Source: Gammaproteobacteria bacterium
Lineage (GTDB): Bacteria > Pseudomonadota > Gammaproteobacteria > Pseudomonadales > Pseudomonadaceae
Length of the DNA: 11,905 nucleotides
Direction: 5' to 3'
NCBI GenBank assembly: GCA_012735335.1
Contig: JAAYHO010000321.1
Coordinates: 1 to 11,905, forward strand
Made by a program: the position numbers and the translations under genes. Positions 1 through 9,352 of this stretch are shown here, piece after piece. Under the pieces are notes generated by a model. It did not search any database and had not been told where the DNA came from. It worked only from the letters and a program-made list of their open reading frames with translations. Position 1 is the stretch's first letter. Every line of letters starts with the position of its first letter.

Positions 1-920
1 TACGGGCAGTTACCACGGTAGTCAGCAATATCCCGATCGGATCTGTGGTTCGGGCCACACAGGAACTGGCTGTAGCGAGTGTCTTCGTCGAGGAAGCGCT
101 TCATCCAGGACACACCGAAACGGCTCAGCACGTTGTTGTTCAGACCACCACCGTTGGCACAGTAGTGGCTGCCACCGCTGATTTCCACATAGGCCTTGTC
201 GATGCTGTTGGGCAGGCGGTTGTAGAACGGCGAAGCATGGGCTGCTACCGGTGCAACGATATCCGCCTGGCAGGCGAAGATCAGCGTTGGTGCCTGGGCG
301 TTGGCAGCGTAGCTGCTGACAGTATCCCACGGCGCCAGCGGAATGGCAGCCTTGATACGGCCTTCAGACGCCACCCGCAGGGTGCCACCACCACCCATGG
401 ACCAGCCGATCACACCCAGCCGATTGGTGTCAATCATGCCGCGCACCGGACTGGTACGGCTGCTGTTCTGGGACACCAGATAGTCCAAGGCGTTATTGAT
501 CTGACGGGCACGGCTCGGCGGCTGGTCGAAGCCGGTGTTGGTATCGATGGTCAGCACCACGAAGCCATGGGAAGCCAGCTTAGGTCCCCACCAGTCGATG
601 GAGGACTCGGCGGATACGAACCCCGGAATCACCACGACAGCGCCCATGGTGCCGGTGGTACCGGTCGGATAGTGGATGGTGCCGCCACCGAAGCCGCTTA
701 CCAGGCTGGAAACGCGACTGGTACGTACGCTCAGCGGACCGCTGCGGGCTTCCAGAAAGGATACGGTGGGGTTGGGGCCGCGTACGTAGGGCGATTCTTC
801 AGCGGGCGGATTCGGCGTGCTTGGCGGTGCCGGGTTGGTCGCCATTGCTGTAGAGGAAAGCAACAGTGCGCCCGCTGCCAACATGGACAGCAGTGAGCTG
901 GACAAGGTTTTATTTATCAT
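1..920 (-). CDS. Secreted PETase-like polyester hydrolase (cutinase family), 3' end cut by window edge
   Basis: This alpha/beta hydrolase should cleave ester bonds in polyesters (cutin-like polymers, aliphatic polyesters, possibly PET) outside the cell. The ATG is at 918-920 with GGGA 8 nt upstream (929-932). Residues 1-27 form a Sec signal peptide (MINKTLSSS..., cut after AMA), followed by a Pro-rich linker. Visible: YVRGPNPT at 45-52, oxyanion loop PGF (99-101), nucleophile motif GWSMGG with Ser174, APWD (196-199), Asp220 in CQADIVAPV, and His252 in GGSHYCAN. Trp173 precedes the Ser. Cys217/Cys254 and Cys288/Cys305 match the two disulfides of type II PETases. From the catalytic His to the VxW motif there are 21 residues, as in Ideonella PETase; the Thermobifida cutinase has 18. 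Overall it closely resembles Halopseudomonas aestusnigri PE-H as I remember it. 306 codons plus TA are visible; PE-H ends NCPY, so probably only Tyr and the stop are missing. Family assignment is strong; PET activity is inferred. Confidence 0.93.
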
Positions 921-1305: not shown

Positions 1306-2205
1306 ATGTTCGAGAATGTGGACTGGCTGCCAGACAATTTTGTCATTTCCGATGCCGTGCTCAGCCTGCTGGCCAGCTCGGTGATACTGGTGGTCACCGT
1401 CATGATCCTGCGCTCGCTGACCGCTCGCTTCATCCAGCGCACCGTGCAGTCGCCGGAGCTGCGCGGCAAGTGGCTGATCAACTCACGCAATGGCTTCCTG
1501 CTGCTGATGTTGCTGGGGCTGGTGATGATCTGGGGTGAGGAACTGCGCACCCTGGCACTGTCGATTGTTGCCATAGCGGTGGCCTTCGTGGTGGCGACCA
1601 AGGAACTGATCCTGTGCTTTACCGGCTCGATCCTGAAAAGCGGTTCGCGCTCCTTTGTGCTTGGTGACCGCATCCAGGTCAAGGATCTACGCGGCGATGT
1701 GATTGACCAAACGCTGCTGGCGACCACCATTCTCGAAGTCGGACCGGGCAAGAACATGCACCAGCGTACCGGCCGCCGCATCGTGATCCCCAATGCGCTG
1801 TTCGTCTCCGAGCCAGTGGTCAACGAAAGCTTCACCACCCATTACGACTTCCATGTATTCACCGTGCCCTTCAAGCGCGAGGATAACTGGCAGGCCGCCC
1901 AGGCCGCACTGCTGGAGTCGGCCAACCGCCACTGTGCGCCCTACCTGGAGCTGGTACGCCGCTACATGAGCAAGATCGGCAACCAACGCGGACTGACGAT
2001 GCCGACGGTAGAGCCCAGGGTAACCCTGCAGGTACCGGTTGCCGGGGAAATTCACCTGACCGTGCGCCTGCCGGTCAAGGTCGGTGAACGCAATTTCATC
2101 GAACAGGGCATTCTCAGTGAAGTTTTCACCGATAACGACTTTTCACCCCAGAGCCGAAGCAGGAACACGGCTGGCGAGCACGCTGCTCCAGCCGTAGCCG
2201 AATAA
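1306..2205 (+). CDS. Small MscS-type mechanosensitive ion channel
   Basis: 299-residue inner-membrane channel that probably opens under membrane tension to release solutes after osmotic downshock. About three hydrophobic helices are visible (roughly residues 17-38, 60-77 and 82-105). They are followed by the MscS beta-domain signature: FVLGDRIQV (about 117-125), RGDVIDQTLLATTILEV, and RRIVIPNALFVSEPVVN (about 154-170), matching the family pattern of a GD, a G-V turn, a T-x-L and an IPN-x-N motif. The C-terminal part is the soluble alpha/beta cage region, ending in a polar tail. AGGGG at 1295-1299 lies 6 nt before the ATG, supporting this start. The FUSC-family gene begins 12 nt after the stop, so the two are probably co-transcribed. 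MscS proteins of this compact type are common in proteobacteria; the exact subclass is not assigned. Confidence 0.88.
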   Translation: MFENVDWLPDNFVISDAVLSLLASSVILVVTVMILRSLTARFIQRTVQSPELRGKWLINSRNGFLLLMLLGLVMIWGEELRTLALSIVAIAVAFVVATKELILCFTGSILKSGSRSFVLGDRIQVKDLRGDVIDQTLLATTILEVGPGKNMHQRTGRRIVIPNALFVSEPVVNESFTTHYDFHVFTVPFKREDNWQAAQAALLESANRHCAPYLELVRRYMSKIGNQRGLTMPTVEPRVTLQVPVAGEIHLTVRLPVKVGERNFIEQGILSEVFTDNDFSPQSRSRNTAGEHAAPAVAE

Positions 2206-4511: not shown

Positions 4512-7500
4512 ATGGCCTTGCCTCATCCACTTCACGATCAGAACAGACAACAGCACCACAATACCCGGGCATTGCTCCATCCAGACCTTGAACAGCAAAA
4601 CCTGCTCCAACTGGCGCAGCAGATCAGTCAGCACTATATGGTGGATGAAGACACTCTGATGCCAGAGCTGATTCAGGTACTGGATCATTCCCCCGATCGT
4701 ATCCAGCAACTGAATCAGCGCACCGCCGAGCTGGTCGAGCGGGTACGCGCCCAGGGCGATGCCATCGACAGCGTGGATCAGTTGCTGCAGCAGTACAGCC
4801 TGGACACCCAGGAGGGGGTGCTGCTGATGTGCCTGGCCGAAGCCCTGCTACGGGTCCCTGACTCCCGTACGGCCGAGGCGCTGATCCGCGACAAGCTGTC
4901 GATTGCCGACTGGGAAAAATATCTGGGCCAGAGTGATTCGCTGCTGGTCAATGCCTCTACCTGGGGGTTGATGCTGACCCGGCGGGTGGTCAAGGTTGAT
5001 CCGAAGGATGATGAGCCGGTGCCGGTATTCAGACGCCTGGTCAGCCGACTGGGTGAGCCGGTGGTGCGTCAGGTGATGTCCCATGCGATGAAGCTGATGG
5101 GCTATCAGTTCGTGCTGGGCCGCACCCTGCCGGAGGCGCTGACCAATGGCAAGCCCTTGTTCAAGCAGGGATACACCTATTCCTTCGACATGCTCGGGGA
5201 GGCGGCCTGTACCCGGGAAGATGCGCAGCGTTATTTCGCCGCCTATCTGGATGCCATAGAAAAGGTCAGCGCCGCCACAGCAAAAGAGGCCGCCTCTGCC
5301 CCGCCGCCGTCCATTTCGATCAAGCTGTCCGCCCTGCATCCGCGCTACGAGCGCAGCCAGCGTGAGCGGGTGCTCGCCGAACTGGGGGATACCCTTGGGC
5401 AACTGTTGGCCCGCGCCCGGGAACTGGATGTAGCCATTACCCTGGACGCCGAGGAGGCGGATCGACTGGAGATTTCCCTGGAACTGCTGGAGCTGGTCTA
5501 TCGCCAGCATGCCAAGGGATGGGGCAAGCTGGGGCTGGTGGTGCAGGCCTACTCCAAGCGGGCGCTGCCGGTATTGCACTGGCTCACCCGTCTGGCCGCT
5601 GAACAGGGCGATGAGATTCCCGTGCGACTGGTCAAGGGTGCCTACTGGGATACCGAGATCAAACATGCACAGATGCTGGGGCTGGCGGACTATCCGGTAT
5701 TCACCCGCAAGGCCAATACCGATATTGCCTATCTGGCCTGTGCCCGTTATCTGCTGTCGGATGCTACCCGTGGCCGACTGTTCCCGCAGTTCGCCACCCA
5801 CAACGCCCATACCCTGACCAGCCTGCTGGGTATGGCCGGGAATCGCCCGATCGAGTTCCAGCGCCTGCACGGCATGGGCGAGGCGCTGTACAAGCAGGCG
5901 CTGCAGATGGCGCCCGCCGGCAGCTACTGCCGTATCTATGCGCCGGTGGGGGCACACAAGGATCTGCTGCCCTATCTGGTGCGTCGCCTGCTGGAGAACG
6001 GTGCCAACTCCTCCTTCGTGCACCAACTGGTTGACGAGCGGGTGCCGGTGGAGCAGCTCTGCCGCCATCCGCTGGAAGTGCTCGACAACAAGGCCAGCTA
6101 CCGCAATACCCGCATCCCCCTGCCCCATGATCTATACGGGCCGCAACGTCCCAACTCCAAGGGCCTCAACCTGCTGATCGACAGCCAGCTTGAGCCGCTG
6201 CGCCAGGCCATGCAGCCCTGGAATCAGCATCAGTGGCGCGCTCAGTCACTGGTGGCAGCGGCGGTGACGGCCGCTGCGGGAGCGAGCGAAGTGGTAGTCA
6301 GCCCCTTTGACCGCCAACAGCAGGTCGGTGAGGTACAGCTGGCCTCGGCCGAACAGGTACAGCAGGCTCTGGATGCCGCAGCGCTGGCCTTTCCTCGCTG
6401 GAATGCCGTGCCGGTGAGCGAACGGGCAGCGTCCCTGCGCCGCTTGGGCGATCTGCTGGAGCAGCACTTTGCCGAGCTGATGGCACTGTGTGCCCGGGAG
6501 GCGGGCAAGCAATTGGCCGATGGCGTGGCGGAGATCCGTGAGGCGGTGGACTTCTGCCGCTATTACGCCTTTCAGGCGGAACAGAAGATGGGCGCGGCGA
6601 CGACCATGCCCGGCCCCACCGGTGAGTCCAACGAGCTGTACCTCACCGGCCGGGGTGTATTTGTGGCCATCAGCCCGTGGAACTTCCCGGTGGCGATCTT
6701 CCTCGGTCAGGTAGCCGCCGCGCTGGTAACCGGCAATACGGTGCTGGCCAAACCGGCGGAACAGACCTCGCTGGTAGCCCATCGCTGTGTTCAGCTGGCC
6801 CATGAGGCGGGTATCCCCCGGGATGTGCTGCAACTGCTGCCCGGCTCCGGCCGGGAGCTGGGCCCGGTACTGACCGGCGATCCCCGGGTGGTCGGTGTGG
6901 TGTTTACCGGCTCTACCGCCACCGCACAGCAGATCAACCTGAGTCTGGCCCAGCGCCAGGGCGGCGCGCTGGCCACCCTGATAGCCGAAACCGGAGGTCA
7001 GAACGCCATGCTGGTGGACTCCACCGCCCTGCCTGAACAGGTGGTGGCGGATGTGGTCGAGTCGGCCTTTGCCAGTGCCGGGCAGCGCTGCTCCGCCCTG
7101 CGGGTGCTGTTTGTGCAGGAAGATATCGCCGACAAGGTAGAAGGTCTGCTGGCTGGTGCCATGCAGGAGCTGCAACTGGGTGATCCCCGGGATCTGGCCA
7201 CGGATGTGGGCCCGGTGATCGATGCCGGGGCCAGGCAGAAGCTGCTGGCCCATATAGAGGATTATCGTCAGCGCGGACGCCTGCTGGCGCAGACCGCAGT
7301 ACCGGAGGACTGGCAGCAGCGCGGCGAGTTTGTCACTCCCACCGCCCTGCGTCTGCAATCCATGGATGAGCTGGACCGGGAGCACTTCGGTCCGGTACTG
7401 CACATCATCCGCTACCGGGCACAGGAGGTGGATCAGGTAATCGACAGCATCAACCGCTGCGGCTACGGCCTGACCTTCGGTATCCAGAGTCGCAACGAGG

Positions 7501-7733
7501 GTTTCTGTTCTTATATCGAAAGTCGCATTCGCGTAGGTAATGTGTACGTTAATCGTAATATGATAGGCGCCGTTGTGGGCGTCCAACCCTTTGGTGGCAT
7601 GGGGCTGTCCGGTACCGGCCCCAAGGCCGGCGGACCGCACTACCTGCTGCGTTTCATTACCGAGCGCACCCGTACCATCAATACCGCAGCCATCGGCGGC
7701 AATGCCAGCCTGCTGGCGCAGGGAGATGACTGA
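4512..7733 (+). CDS. putA: Bifunctional proline dehydrogenase / P5C dehydrogenase PutA (no DNA-binding domain)
   Basis: A 1073-residue enzyme of the inner face of the membrane. It oxidises proline to delta-1-pyrroline-5-carboxylate with FAD and quinone, then oxidises the semialdehyde to glutamate with NAD, channelling the intermediate. After an N-terminal helical arm, the PRODH barrel shows LDAEEADRLEISLELLE, RLVKGAYWD (about 372-380) and RRLLENGANSSFV (from Arg491-Arg492). The aldehyde dehydrogenase half has SPWNFP, FTGSTATAQQ, ETGGQN with general base Glu826, and GQRCSALR with catalytic Cys860. The length and the absence of a ribbon-helix-helix N-terminus fit the short PutA class, so unlike the E. 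coli enzyme it should not repress its own operon. A GGAG at 4500-4503 sits 8 nt before the ATG. putP follows after 110 bp on the same strand. Codons at about 7500-7575 are unusually AT-ending. Confidence 0.97.
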   Translation: MALPHPLHDQNRQQHHNTRALLHPDLEQQNLLQLAQQISQHYMVDEDTLMPELIQVLDHSPDRIQQLNQRTAELVERVRAQGDAIDSVDQLLQQYSLDTQEGVLLMCLAEALLRVPDSRTAEALIRDKLSIADWEKYLGQSDSLLVNASTWGLMLTRRVVKVDPKDDEPVPVFRRLVSRLGEPVVRQVMSHAMKLMGYQFVLGRTLPEALTNGKPLFKQGYTYSFDMLGEAACTREDAQRYFAAYLDAIEKVSAATAKEAASAPPPSISIKLSALHPRYERSQRERVLAELGDTLGQLLARARELDVAITLDAEEADRLEISLELLELVYRQHAKGWGKLGLVVQAYSKRALPVLHWLTRLAAEQGDEIPVRLVKGAYWDTEIKHAQMLGLADYPVFTRKANTDIAYLACARYLLSDATRGRLFPQFATHNAHTLTSLLGMAGNRPIEFQRLHGMGEALYKQALQMAPAGSYCRIYAPVGAHKDLLPYLVRRLLENGANSSFVHQLVDERVPVEQLCRHPLEVLDNKASYRNTRIPLPHDLYGPQRPNSKGLNLLIDSQLEPLRQAMQPWNQHQWRAQSLVAAAVTAAAGASEVVVSPFDRQQQVGEVQLASAEQVQQALDAAALAFPRWNAVPVSERAASLRRLGDLLEQHFAELMALCAREAGKQLADGVAEIREAVDFCRYYAFQAEQKMGAATTMPGPTGESNELYLTGRGVFVAISPWNFPVAIFLGQVAAALVTGNTVLAKPAEQTSLVAHRCVQLAHEAGIPRDVLQLLPGSGRELGPVLTGDPRVVGVVFTGSTATAQQINLSLAQRQGGALATLIAETGGQNAMLVDSTALPEQVVADVVESAFASAGQRCSALRVLFVQEDIADKVEGLLAGAMQELQLGDPRDLATDVGPVIDAGARQKLLAHIEDYRQRGRLLAQTAVPEDWQQRGEFVTPTALRLQSMDELDREHFGPVLHIIRYRAQEVDQVIDSINRCGYGLTFGIQSRNEGFCSYIESRIRVGNVYVNRNMIGAVVGVQPFGGMGLSGTGPKAGGPHYLLRFITERTRTINTAAIGGNASLLAQGDD

Positions 7734-7763
7734 TCATGGGCGCCCTGCCCCATTCCCTTAGAC

Positions 7764-7769
7764 AAGGAG
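7764..7769 (+). promoter_or_regulatory. Strong ribosome binding site of the 22-codon ORF
   Basis: AAGGAG lies 9 nt before the ATG at 7779. It is the best Shine-Dalgarno in the putA-putP gap and does not serve putP directly, which has its own GGAGG at 7831-7835. It is the main reason for believing the short ORF is translated. Confidence 0.6.
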
Positions 7770-7778
7770 CTGTTCCCC

Positions 7779-7847
7779 ATGCTGGACAACAACAATAACC
7801 CCGATTCAATCAACGGGGCTTCCCCGGAGCGGAGGGCATTCCCATGA
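7779..7847 (+). CDS. 22-residue ORF overlapping the putP start (possible leader peptide)
   Basis: The frame starts MLDNNNNPDS and ends RRAFP, with TGA overlapping the putP ATG as ATGA (7844-7847). AAGGAG 9 nt before its ATG gives a plausible start. This geometry is classic for translational coupling: ribosomes ending the short ORF can restart on putP. The peptide is polar (four Asn in a row) with no membrane segment or signal, so the act of translation may matter more than the product. It contains no proline run of the kind used in attenuation (two isolated Pro before the last). A small inverted repeat, CCCCG (7799-7803) with CGGGG (7814-7818), lies inside it. I do not recognise a family. Confidence 0.45.
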   Translation: MLDNNNNPDSINGASPERRAFP

Positions 7848-9352
7848 CCGACCAGACATTCCAGCTGATTGCCATCGGCCTGTACTTCATCACCATGCTC
7901 GGTATCGGCTATTACGCCTACTTCCAGACCAGCAGCCTGGATGACTACATGCTGGCCGGGCGCAAACTGTCCCCCGGCGTAGCTGCGCTGTCCGCCGGGG
8001 CGTCGGACATGTCCGGCTGGCTGCTGATGGGCCTGCCGGGCGCCATCTATGCCTCCGGCCTGGTCGAGGCCTGGATCGCCATCGGTCTGACCATAGGTGC
8101 CTATCTGAACTGGCGACTGGTGGCACCGCGCCTGCGTGCCTATACCGAGGTGTCGAACAACTCCATCACCCTGCCCAGCTTCATGGAAAGCCGCTTCAAG
8201 GACAGTACCCGGCTGCTGCGCATCACCTCCGGGGTGATCATCCTGGTGTTCTTCACCTTCTATGTGTCCTCTGGCATGGTTGCTGGCGGGGTGTTCTTCG
8301 AAGCCTCCTTCGGTACCCACTATCTGTTCGGCATGCTGCTGGTAGCGGGCATCACCCTGACCTACACCCTGTTCGGCGGCTTCCTCGGCGCATCACTGAC
8401 CGACGTGACCCAGGGGCTGCTGATGCTGGGTGCGCTGATCATAGCACCGGTGGTGACCATCTACACCATGGGCGGACTGGGCGATACCATCGACGCGATC
8501 AACGCCGCCGATGCCGCGCACAACCTCGCCAACCCGGAGGCCCAACTGCATCGCACCTCCCTGCTGTTCGGCGGCAGCCTGCTGGCGATTCTGTCAGCCG
8601 CGTCCTGGGGGCTGGGTTATTTCGGCCAGCCGCACATCATTGTGCGCTTCATGGCCATGCGCTCCTCCGCCGATGCCAAGGCCGGGCGCCGCATCGGTAT
8701 CGGCTGGATGGTGCTGGTGGCTGCCGGGGCGGTGTTCACCGGGCTGATCGGGGTGGGCTTCTTCCACACCACCGAGCACACACTGGACAACCCGGAAACC
8801 GTGTTCCTGCTGCTGTCGCAGATCCTGTTCCACCCCTTCATTGCCGGCCTGGTGCTGGCGGCGGTGCTGGCGGCGATCATGTCCACCGTTTCCTCCCAGT
8901 TGCTGGTGTGCTCCTCAGCGCTGGTGGAAGACCTGTACAAGATCTTCGGCAAGAACCTGTCGGCGCAGGCCCAGGTCATGCTGGGCCGTCTGGGGGTACT
9001 GGCGGTGGCTGTGGTGGCTGCGCTGCTGGCGATTGACCCGCGCTCGAATATCCTCGGCCTGGTGGCCTTTGCCTGGGCCGGCTTCGGTGCGGCCTTCGGT
9101 CCCATCATCCTGCTGTCGCTGTTCTGGCGCAGGCTGACCTCCATGGGCGCGCTGGCTGGCATGATTGCCGGTGCGGTGGTAGTCGGCATCTGGGGCAACA
9201 TTCCCAGCCTGCAATCGCAGATGTACGAGATCGTGCCCGGCTTCTTCGCCTGCGTAGTGGTAGCGGTGCTGGTGTCACTGGTGACCCGGCTGCACCATGA
9301 TGAGGAGATCCAGAAGGAGTTCAGCGCGATGCAAACCCATCAGTTGAACTGA
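7844..9352 (+). CDS. putP: Sodium/proline symporter PutP
   Basis: 502-residue inner-membrane permease of the solute:sodium symporter family that imports L-proline with Na+. It keeps E. coli PutP numbering through the key region: Arg40 in AGRKL, Ser50, and SAGASDMSGW with Asp55, Ser57 and Gly58, the residues tied to Na+ and proline binding. The second conserved block is ILAAIMSTVSSQLLVCSSALVEDLY-like, corresponding to the Ser340/Thr341 site, and GYFGQPHI and AWAGFGAAFGP are also family signatures. About 13 hydrophobic helices can be traced. GGAGG at 7831-7835 is 8 nt before this ATG. Placement directly after putA, with a coupling ORF between, marks a proline catabolism unit. The protein ends in a short polar tail; a hairpin follows the stop. 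Confidence 0.96.
   Translation: MTDQTFQLIAIGLYFITMLGIGYYAYFQTSSLDDYMLAGRKLSPGVAALSAGASDMSGWLLMGLPGAIYASGLVEAWIAIGLTIGAYLNWRLVAPRLRAYTEVSNNSITLPSFMESRFKDSTRLLRITSGVIILVFFTFYVSSGMVAGGVFFEASFGTHYLFGMLLVAGITLTYTLFGGFLGASLTDVTQGLLMLGALIIAPVVTIYTMGGLGDTIDAINAADAAHNLANPEAQLHRTSLLFGGSLLAILSAASWGLGYFGQPHIIVRFMAMRSSADAKAGRRIGIGWMVLVAAGAVFTGLIGVGFFHTTEHTLDNPETVFLLLSQILFHPFIAGLVLAAVLAAIMSTVSSQLLVCSSALVEDLYKIFGKNLSAQAQVMLGRLGVLAVAVVAALLAIDPRSNILGLVAFAWAGFGAAFGPIILLSLFWRRLTSMGALAGMIAGAVVVGIWGNIPSLQSQMYEIVPGFFACVVVAVLVSLVTRLHHDEEIQKEFSAMQTHQLN

Follow-up and report, generated by a model that had tools for sequence, protein, structure and literature searches.

A predicted type IIa polyester hydrolase, akin to Halopseudomonas enzymes, encoded at a contig end of a Pseudomonadaceae genome

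We describe a gene for a predicted polyester hydrolase at the start of contig JAAYHO010000321.1 from a gammaproteobacterium of the family Pseudomonadaceae (assembly GCA_012735335.1; 2.95 Mb, 513 contigs, 92.5% complete). This contig, C172 in our numbering, was analysed at its full length of 11,905 nucleotides and is called the window below. The open reading frame listing and translation place an alpha/beta-hydrolase frame on the minus strand, running from 920 to 1, with no internal stops and open down to base 3. The window encodes 306 residues without a stop, its bases 2-1 being the first two bases of the final sense codon, and the gene runs past the contig end. Bases 1-127 of the window recur without a mismatch as the last 127 bases of another contig of the same genome, C39. 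This overlap adds Tyr307 and TAA, giving a joined protein of 307 residues with the C-terminus ...RGNCPY, an ending shared with the homologues P0002-P0005. The join is further supported by gene order, which is conserved relative to the Halopseudomonas formosensis locus (L006). The reading frame call starts at an upstream TTG (974); we prefer the ATG at 920-918 because the nearest PDB chains begin at the same point (MINK...). The gene and its main features are as follows:

1..920, minus strand: type IIa poly(ethylene terephthalate) (PET) hydrolase or cutinase-like polyester hydrolase gene, as predicted; codons 1-306 and two bases of codon 307 (Tyr), with the stop on contig C39
840..920, minus strand: probable Sec signal peptide, residues 1-27, with Lys4, a hydrophobic core at about residues 9-22, and AMA followed by Thr28; from hydropathy, and with AlphaFold predicted local distance difference test (pLDDT) values below 50 over residues 1-42
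618..620, minus strand: Phe101 codon, oxyanion-hole and aromatic-clamp position, equivalent to PE-H Phe98 and Ideonella PETase (IsPETase) Tyr87
399..404, minus strand: Trp173-Ser174 codons, with the nucleophile within GWSMGGGG
270..272, minus strand: Cys217 codon, pairing with Cys254 by alignment (PE-H C214-C251)
261..263, minus strand: Asp220 codon, catalytic acid
162..167, minus strand: His252-Tyr253 codons, catalytic base and the IsPETase Ser238 / PE-H Tyr250 position
159..161, minus strand: Cys254 codon, partner of Cys217 by alignment
123..167, minus strand: residues 252-266, with the extended loop of type II (15 residues, where type I-like rows have 12)
57..59, minus strand: Cys288 codon, pairing with Cys305 by alignment (PE-H C285-C302)
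6..8, minus strand: Cys305 codon, partner of Cys288 by alignment

The signal-peptide cleavage site is a prediction from sequence and hydropathy. Directly past the stop, C39 has a terminator-like hairpin of 13 pairs with a T-rich tail; the hydrolase gene is therefore probably transcribed alone. A promoter scan at the gene start gave a single weak minus-strand match (9/12) at 1038-1010, and three matches on both strands together, against 0.6 in shuffled sequence.

The protein scores 404.6 bits with the Pfam PETase model PF12740, whose cut-off is 28, and its top PDB sequence match has an E-value of 2.1e-167; the family match is therefore not due to chance. Dienelactone hydrolase was considered and rejected (PF01738 scores 32.2 bits, which passes its cut-off of 21 yet is far below the 404.6 bits for PETase), as was a type III PETase resembling HaloPETase1, the window protein having GWSMG and not GHSQG.

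Residue by residue, the 307-residue product has Phe101, Trp173, Ser174, Met175, Cys217, Asp220, His252, Tyr253, Cys254, Cys288 and Cys305. The features by which Joo et al. (2018) delimit type II are found in it: the triad Ser174/Asp220/His252 with Met175 in the oxyanion hole; four cysteines at the positions of PE-H C214-C251 and C285-C302, for which disulfides are predicted by alignment; Trp173 in place of His before the nucleophile; and the extended loop after the catalytic His. That loop spans 15 residues from His252 to Ser266 against 12 in all 21 type I-like rows of the alignment, so its three-residue extension is real. Among the best 120 of 3060 homologues, from which all homologue counts here are taken, Trp precedes the nucleophile in 120, while the 21 type I-like rows have His; Glu105, equivalent to PE-H E102, is Glu in 116. 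Within type II, type IIa as defined by Joo et al. has Phe or Tyr in place of IsPETase Ser238 (PMC5785972); the window protein has Tyr253 there, and a 2024 review gives the subsite I consensus as Tyr/Phe-Met-Trp (PMC11219463). An ISME J. paper connects certain sequence motifs, DxDxRYxxFxC among them, with measured PET activity (PMC12224614); the window protein has counterparts of these elements, as judged without the exact spacing rules of that paper. An earlier note, made from the window alone, had called this a PETase-like hydrolase of type IIa and had listed the triad, Trp173, both cysteine pairs, the three-residue extension, Phe101 and Tyr253; every residue is at the number it gave, and the type assignment holds by sequence, residue and tree position, with polyester activity remaining a prediction. 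With triad, oxyanion residues and cysteines intact, no internal stop and active close relatives, a paralogue that retains the fold but is inactive or no hydrolase is extremely improbable, and we found nothing in favour of this reading. As a side observation, type IIa-like proteins of loci L013, L019, L023, L025, L028, L029, L030 and L040 have a post-His loop extended by another three residues, to 18 from 15 (e.g. HYCANGGSSFGRYDAVLG).

Of 101 related loci, 80 were used, yielding 86 proteins of at least 230 residues; for the tree 15 of 95 rows were dropped as near-copies or fragments, and Burkholderiales type IIb sequences were not included. The window protein groups with P0002 and P0003, next to H. 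formosensis and H. pertucinogena (support 100/92), and PbauzCut and PsCut join them in a group of 14 rows (100/99). In a 23-row group (98/89) it lies together with the PDB chains 8ait, 8ais and 6sbn, as expected of type IIa. The window protein belongs with the Halopseudomonas type IIa enzymes, and its closest named proteins and this tree make Halopseudomonas the probable genus of the genome. Over the aligned part of residues 44-307 (mature identity), the H. formosensis orthologue is 89.0% identical, with the same active-site residues and gene neighbourhood and about 11% of mature positions differing; an enzyme Hfor_PE-H, which the L006 protein may be, is named in the literature (PMC12442448). 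H. xiamenensis (86.3%) and H. pertucinogena (86.0%) follow. PsCut of Pseudomonas saudimassiliensis (PDB 8AIS; 86.2%) has the same FWSDHY residue set and a like post-His loop, and PbauzCut of H. bauzanensis (PDB 8AIT; 85.1%) has the same residue set; in both the loop after APWDT is two residues shorter than in the window protein. PE-H of H. aestusnigri (PDB 6SBN; Y250S mutant 6SCD; 83.7%) matches at Phe98/Tyr250 and at the disulfide positions, while its post-His loop, HYCGNGGSIYND, differs from that of the window protein. Over the aligned part, locus L009 (H. bauzanensis) is 100% identical to 8ait and locus L016 (H. aestusnigri) to 6sbn. The type IIb enzyme IsPETase shares the fold, the triad, both disulfides and Trp before Ser at 49-50% identity (listed Foldseek alignments, wild-type chains), and differs in having Ser238 and Tyr87 (PMC5785972) where the window protein has Tyr253 and Phe101.

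The AlphaFold model has a mean pLDDT of 80.2. Its best Foldseek matches are 6scd, 8ait, 8ais and 6sbn, and in VIA-align 9vzr (MG8) ties with these.

The earlier note had further taken Tyr253 and Phe101 for notable variation, giving Phe as the PE-H residue at this site, and had valued the protein as a comparison enzyme on that account. Both residues do depart from IsPETase Ser238 and Tyr87. By alignment and in the published account, however, the PE-H residue that matches IsPETase Ser238 is Tyr250, and the one that matches Tyr87 is Phe98 (PMC7031157). Of the best 120 homologues, 100 have Tyr at position 253, 14 have Phe, 4 have Thr and 2 have Trp; at position 101, 90 have Phe and 30 have Tyr. 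The Phe101/Tyr253 pair is the commonest there (75/120), and is again the commonest among type II-like rows of named genomes (28 of 65), so we take it as the standard of the subgroup; its Tyr also falls under the type IIa definition. It is highly improbable, then, that the two residues make this a natural variant unusual enough to deserve special attention. Little would be gained from a comparison at these positions, because PE-H, PbauzCut and PsCut have both residues and each has a crystal structure. The effect of Ser at this position is also published: PE-H Y250S is an improved mutant with its own structure, 6SCD (PMC7031157).

The database protein P0002 (source not given) is 99% identical to the window protein and differs only by P33L, S72R and Y253F; its source field bears the mark used for the window's own proteins, so it could come from another strain in the same sample or one like it. 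The change between Tyr and Phe within the group does not rest on P0002 alone, because H. oceani (L012), with Phe, sits beside H. aestusnigri PE-H, with Tyr, in the tree. In PE-H the Tyr250 hydroxyl contacts the E102 backbone and narrows the cleft, which Y250S opens (PMC7031157). Since that hydroxyl holds the cleft loop, one could imagine that flips between Tyr and Phe in near-identical enzymes are a natural on/off switch of a cleft-loop latch, tuned by selection. We think this improbable; a strain mixture or an error in one contig may lie behind the Tyr253Phe difference of P0002 and weighs against it. If such a switch were real, P0002 and the window protein would form a near-isogenic test of the latch.

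Other residues are also seen at this position. Thr occurs in the type IIa-like P0095, P0106, P0109, P0118 and L038; P0118 represents 50 contigs. The 2024 review assigns Ser or Thr at the Ser238 position to type IIb (PMC11219463); P0118 nonetheless groups among Halopseudomonas type IIa rows in the tree. Ser directly follows the catalytic His in gammaproteobacterial type II PETase-like proteins of L046 (at about 8001 and 9500), L047 and L071, the two genes of L046 (Proteobacteria bacterium 005FR1) lying in tandem and having the loops HSCANSGNANQ and HSCANSGNSNS. In the study of Joo et al., type IIb comprised four enzymes, each from Burkholderiales (PMC5785972).

Family, residues, fold class, tree position and gene order are directly established, and with them we consider it very likely that the window protein is a type IIa polyester hydrolase, secreted and probably mesophilic, with the H. 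formosensis enzyme and PbauzCut as its counterparts in the same gene neighbourhood and with PE-H closely related; its secretion, activity, temperature range and substrate range, and the role of Tyr253, we infer. The protein would be exported by Sec through its N-terminal signal and then probably by type II secretion, a type II secretin gene being present in the genome. Ser174, activated by His252 and Asp220, would attack ester carbonyls of the polyester, with the backbone NH groups of Phe101 and Met175 holding the oxyanion and Phe101 and Trp198 clamping the acid moiety. Tyr253, next to the catalytic His, probably narrows the cleft, by analogy with PE-H Tyr250. We would expect it to turn over small esters and aliphatic polyesters readily, and to degrade amorphous PET slowly with mainly mono(2-hydroxyethyl) terephthalate released.

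Several points weigh against this assignment. The activity of the window protein itself is predicted by way of its relatives. The model is weak around Phe101, with a block mean pLDDT of 66 over residues 101-110. The NCBIfam model NF051441 for BdeA, a bis(2-hydroxyethyl) terephthalate hydrolase, gave 337.1 bits, below its cut-off of 520. A ring-hydroxylating dioxygenase family search, whose recall of known TphA2 was uncontrolled, recognised no terephthalate dioxygenase in the 92.5% complete genome. That search found two alpha subunits of Rieske oxygenases, one of them truncated by its contig; their matches to 7q04 (terephthalate dioxygenase) have E-values of no better than 3.2e-4 and 1.5e-8, with many other oxygenases ranking higher, and neither subunit reached an NCBIfam cut-off. 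PET is therefore probably not the natural substrate. A search for the MHETase/tannase family was silent in the window's genome and equally in 14 of 14 control genomes, and so is uninformative.

These results bear on a reading that is compatible with the one we prefer and differs from it on the natural substrate: that the protein acts on natural aliphatic polyesters or lipids as a cutinase- or lipase-like esterase, and hydrolyses PET only as a negligible side reaction. The lack of a recognised terephthalate dioxygenase fits it, as do the labels cutinase, lipase or dienelactone hydrolase on close homologues in PDB and databases, and PE-H is active on amorphous PET and inactive on bottle PET (PMC7031157). 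Against it, PET is hydrolysed by the close relatives PE-H (PMC7031157) and HaloPETase5 and HaloPETase6 (PMC12442448). We give this reading about even odds. In type, the window protein is, by all these sequence comparisons, a well-identified and ordinary new PET hydrolase of type IIa, its activity as predicted above.

By itself such a protein matters little. A hydrolase match better than E 1e-100 was found in 35 of 36 sampled genomes of the same genus (its own genome excluded) and in none of 21 genomes from other genera of the order; the hydrolase is nevertheless not restricted to the genus, since the named loci take in Marinobacter and others. Its modest value is as a close sequence for probing the Tyr/Phe gate residue, and in a genome that additionally codes for a type III PETase-like protein. 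The search of that genome turned up only one gene of type IIa. The second polyester hydrolase gene (L005:2641-3510, contig C69) encodes GHSQG and has as its best PDB match 9hl5, which is HaloPETase1, of type III (PMC12442448); the genome would thus encode both type IIa- and type III-like enzymes.

Next to the hydrolase gene the window has one further feature of use for comparison:

1306..2205, plus strand: divergent MscS-type channel gene, outside the hydrolase function, in the same place beside the hydrolase in close relatives

This shared adjacency supports orthology with the close relatives. The window shares its MscS and FUSC genes with the upstream side of the H. formosensis gene, and the C39 genes for an AEC transporter, a PaaI-like protein, RimO and AcnB (names read from the sequences, not by family search) have the order and orientation found downstream of it. 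Both the MscS and AEC genes occur at six of the 80 named loci (L006-L010 and L041), flanking the hydrolase in H. bauzanensis (L009). In P. saudimassiliensis (L008) the MscS gene is more than 7 kb off, and RimO is inverted in L008 and L009. The MscS gene is also present at six of 29 further loci of the same genus (1.5 kb flanks). Many loci with less similar enzymes have none of these neighbours, including that of PE-H (L016), whose 8 kb flanks lack the other query genes.

Arrays of two or three neighbouring hydrolase copies occur in Halopseudomonas, Marinobacter and others (L014, L023, L026, L034, L046, L098, L099, L100, L104, L107, L113 and L114). Elsewhere in the window, positions 4512-9352 carry an unremarkable locus for the use of proline, in which putP (sodium/proline symporter) comes after putA (proline dehydrogenase / glutamate semialdehyde dehydrogenase).
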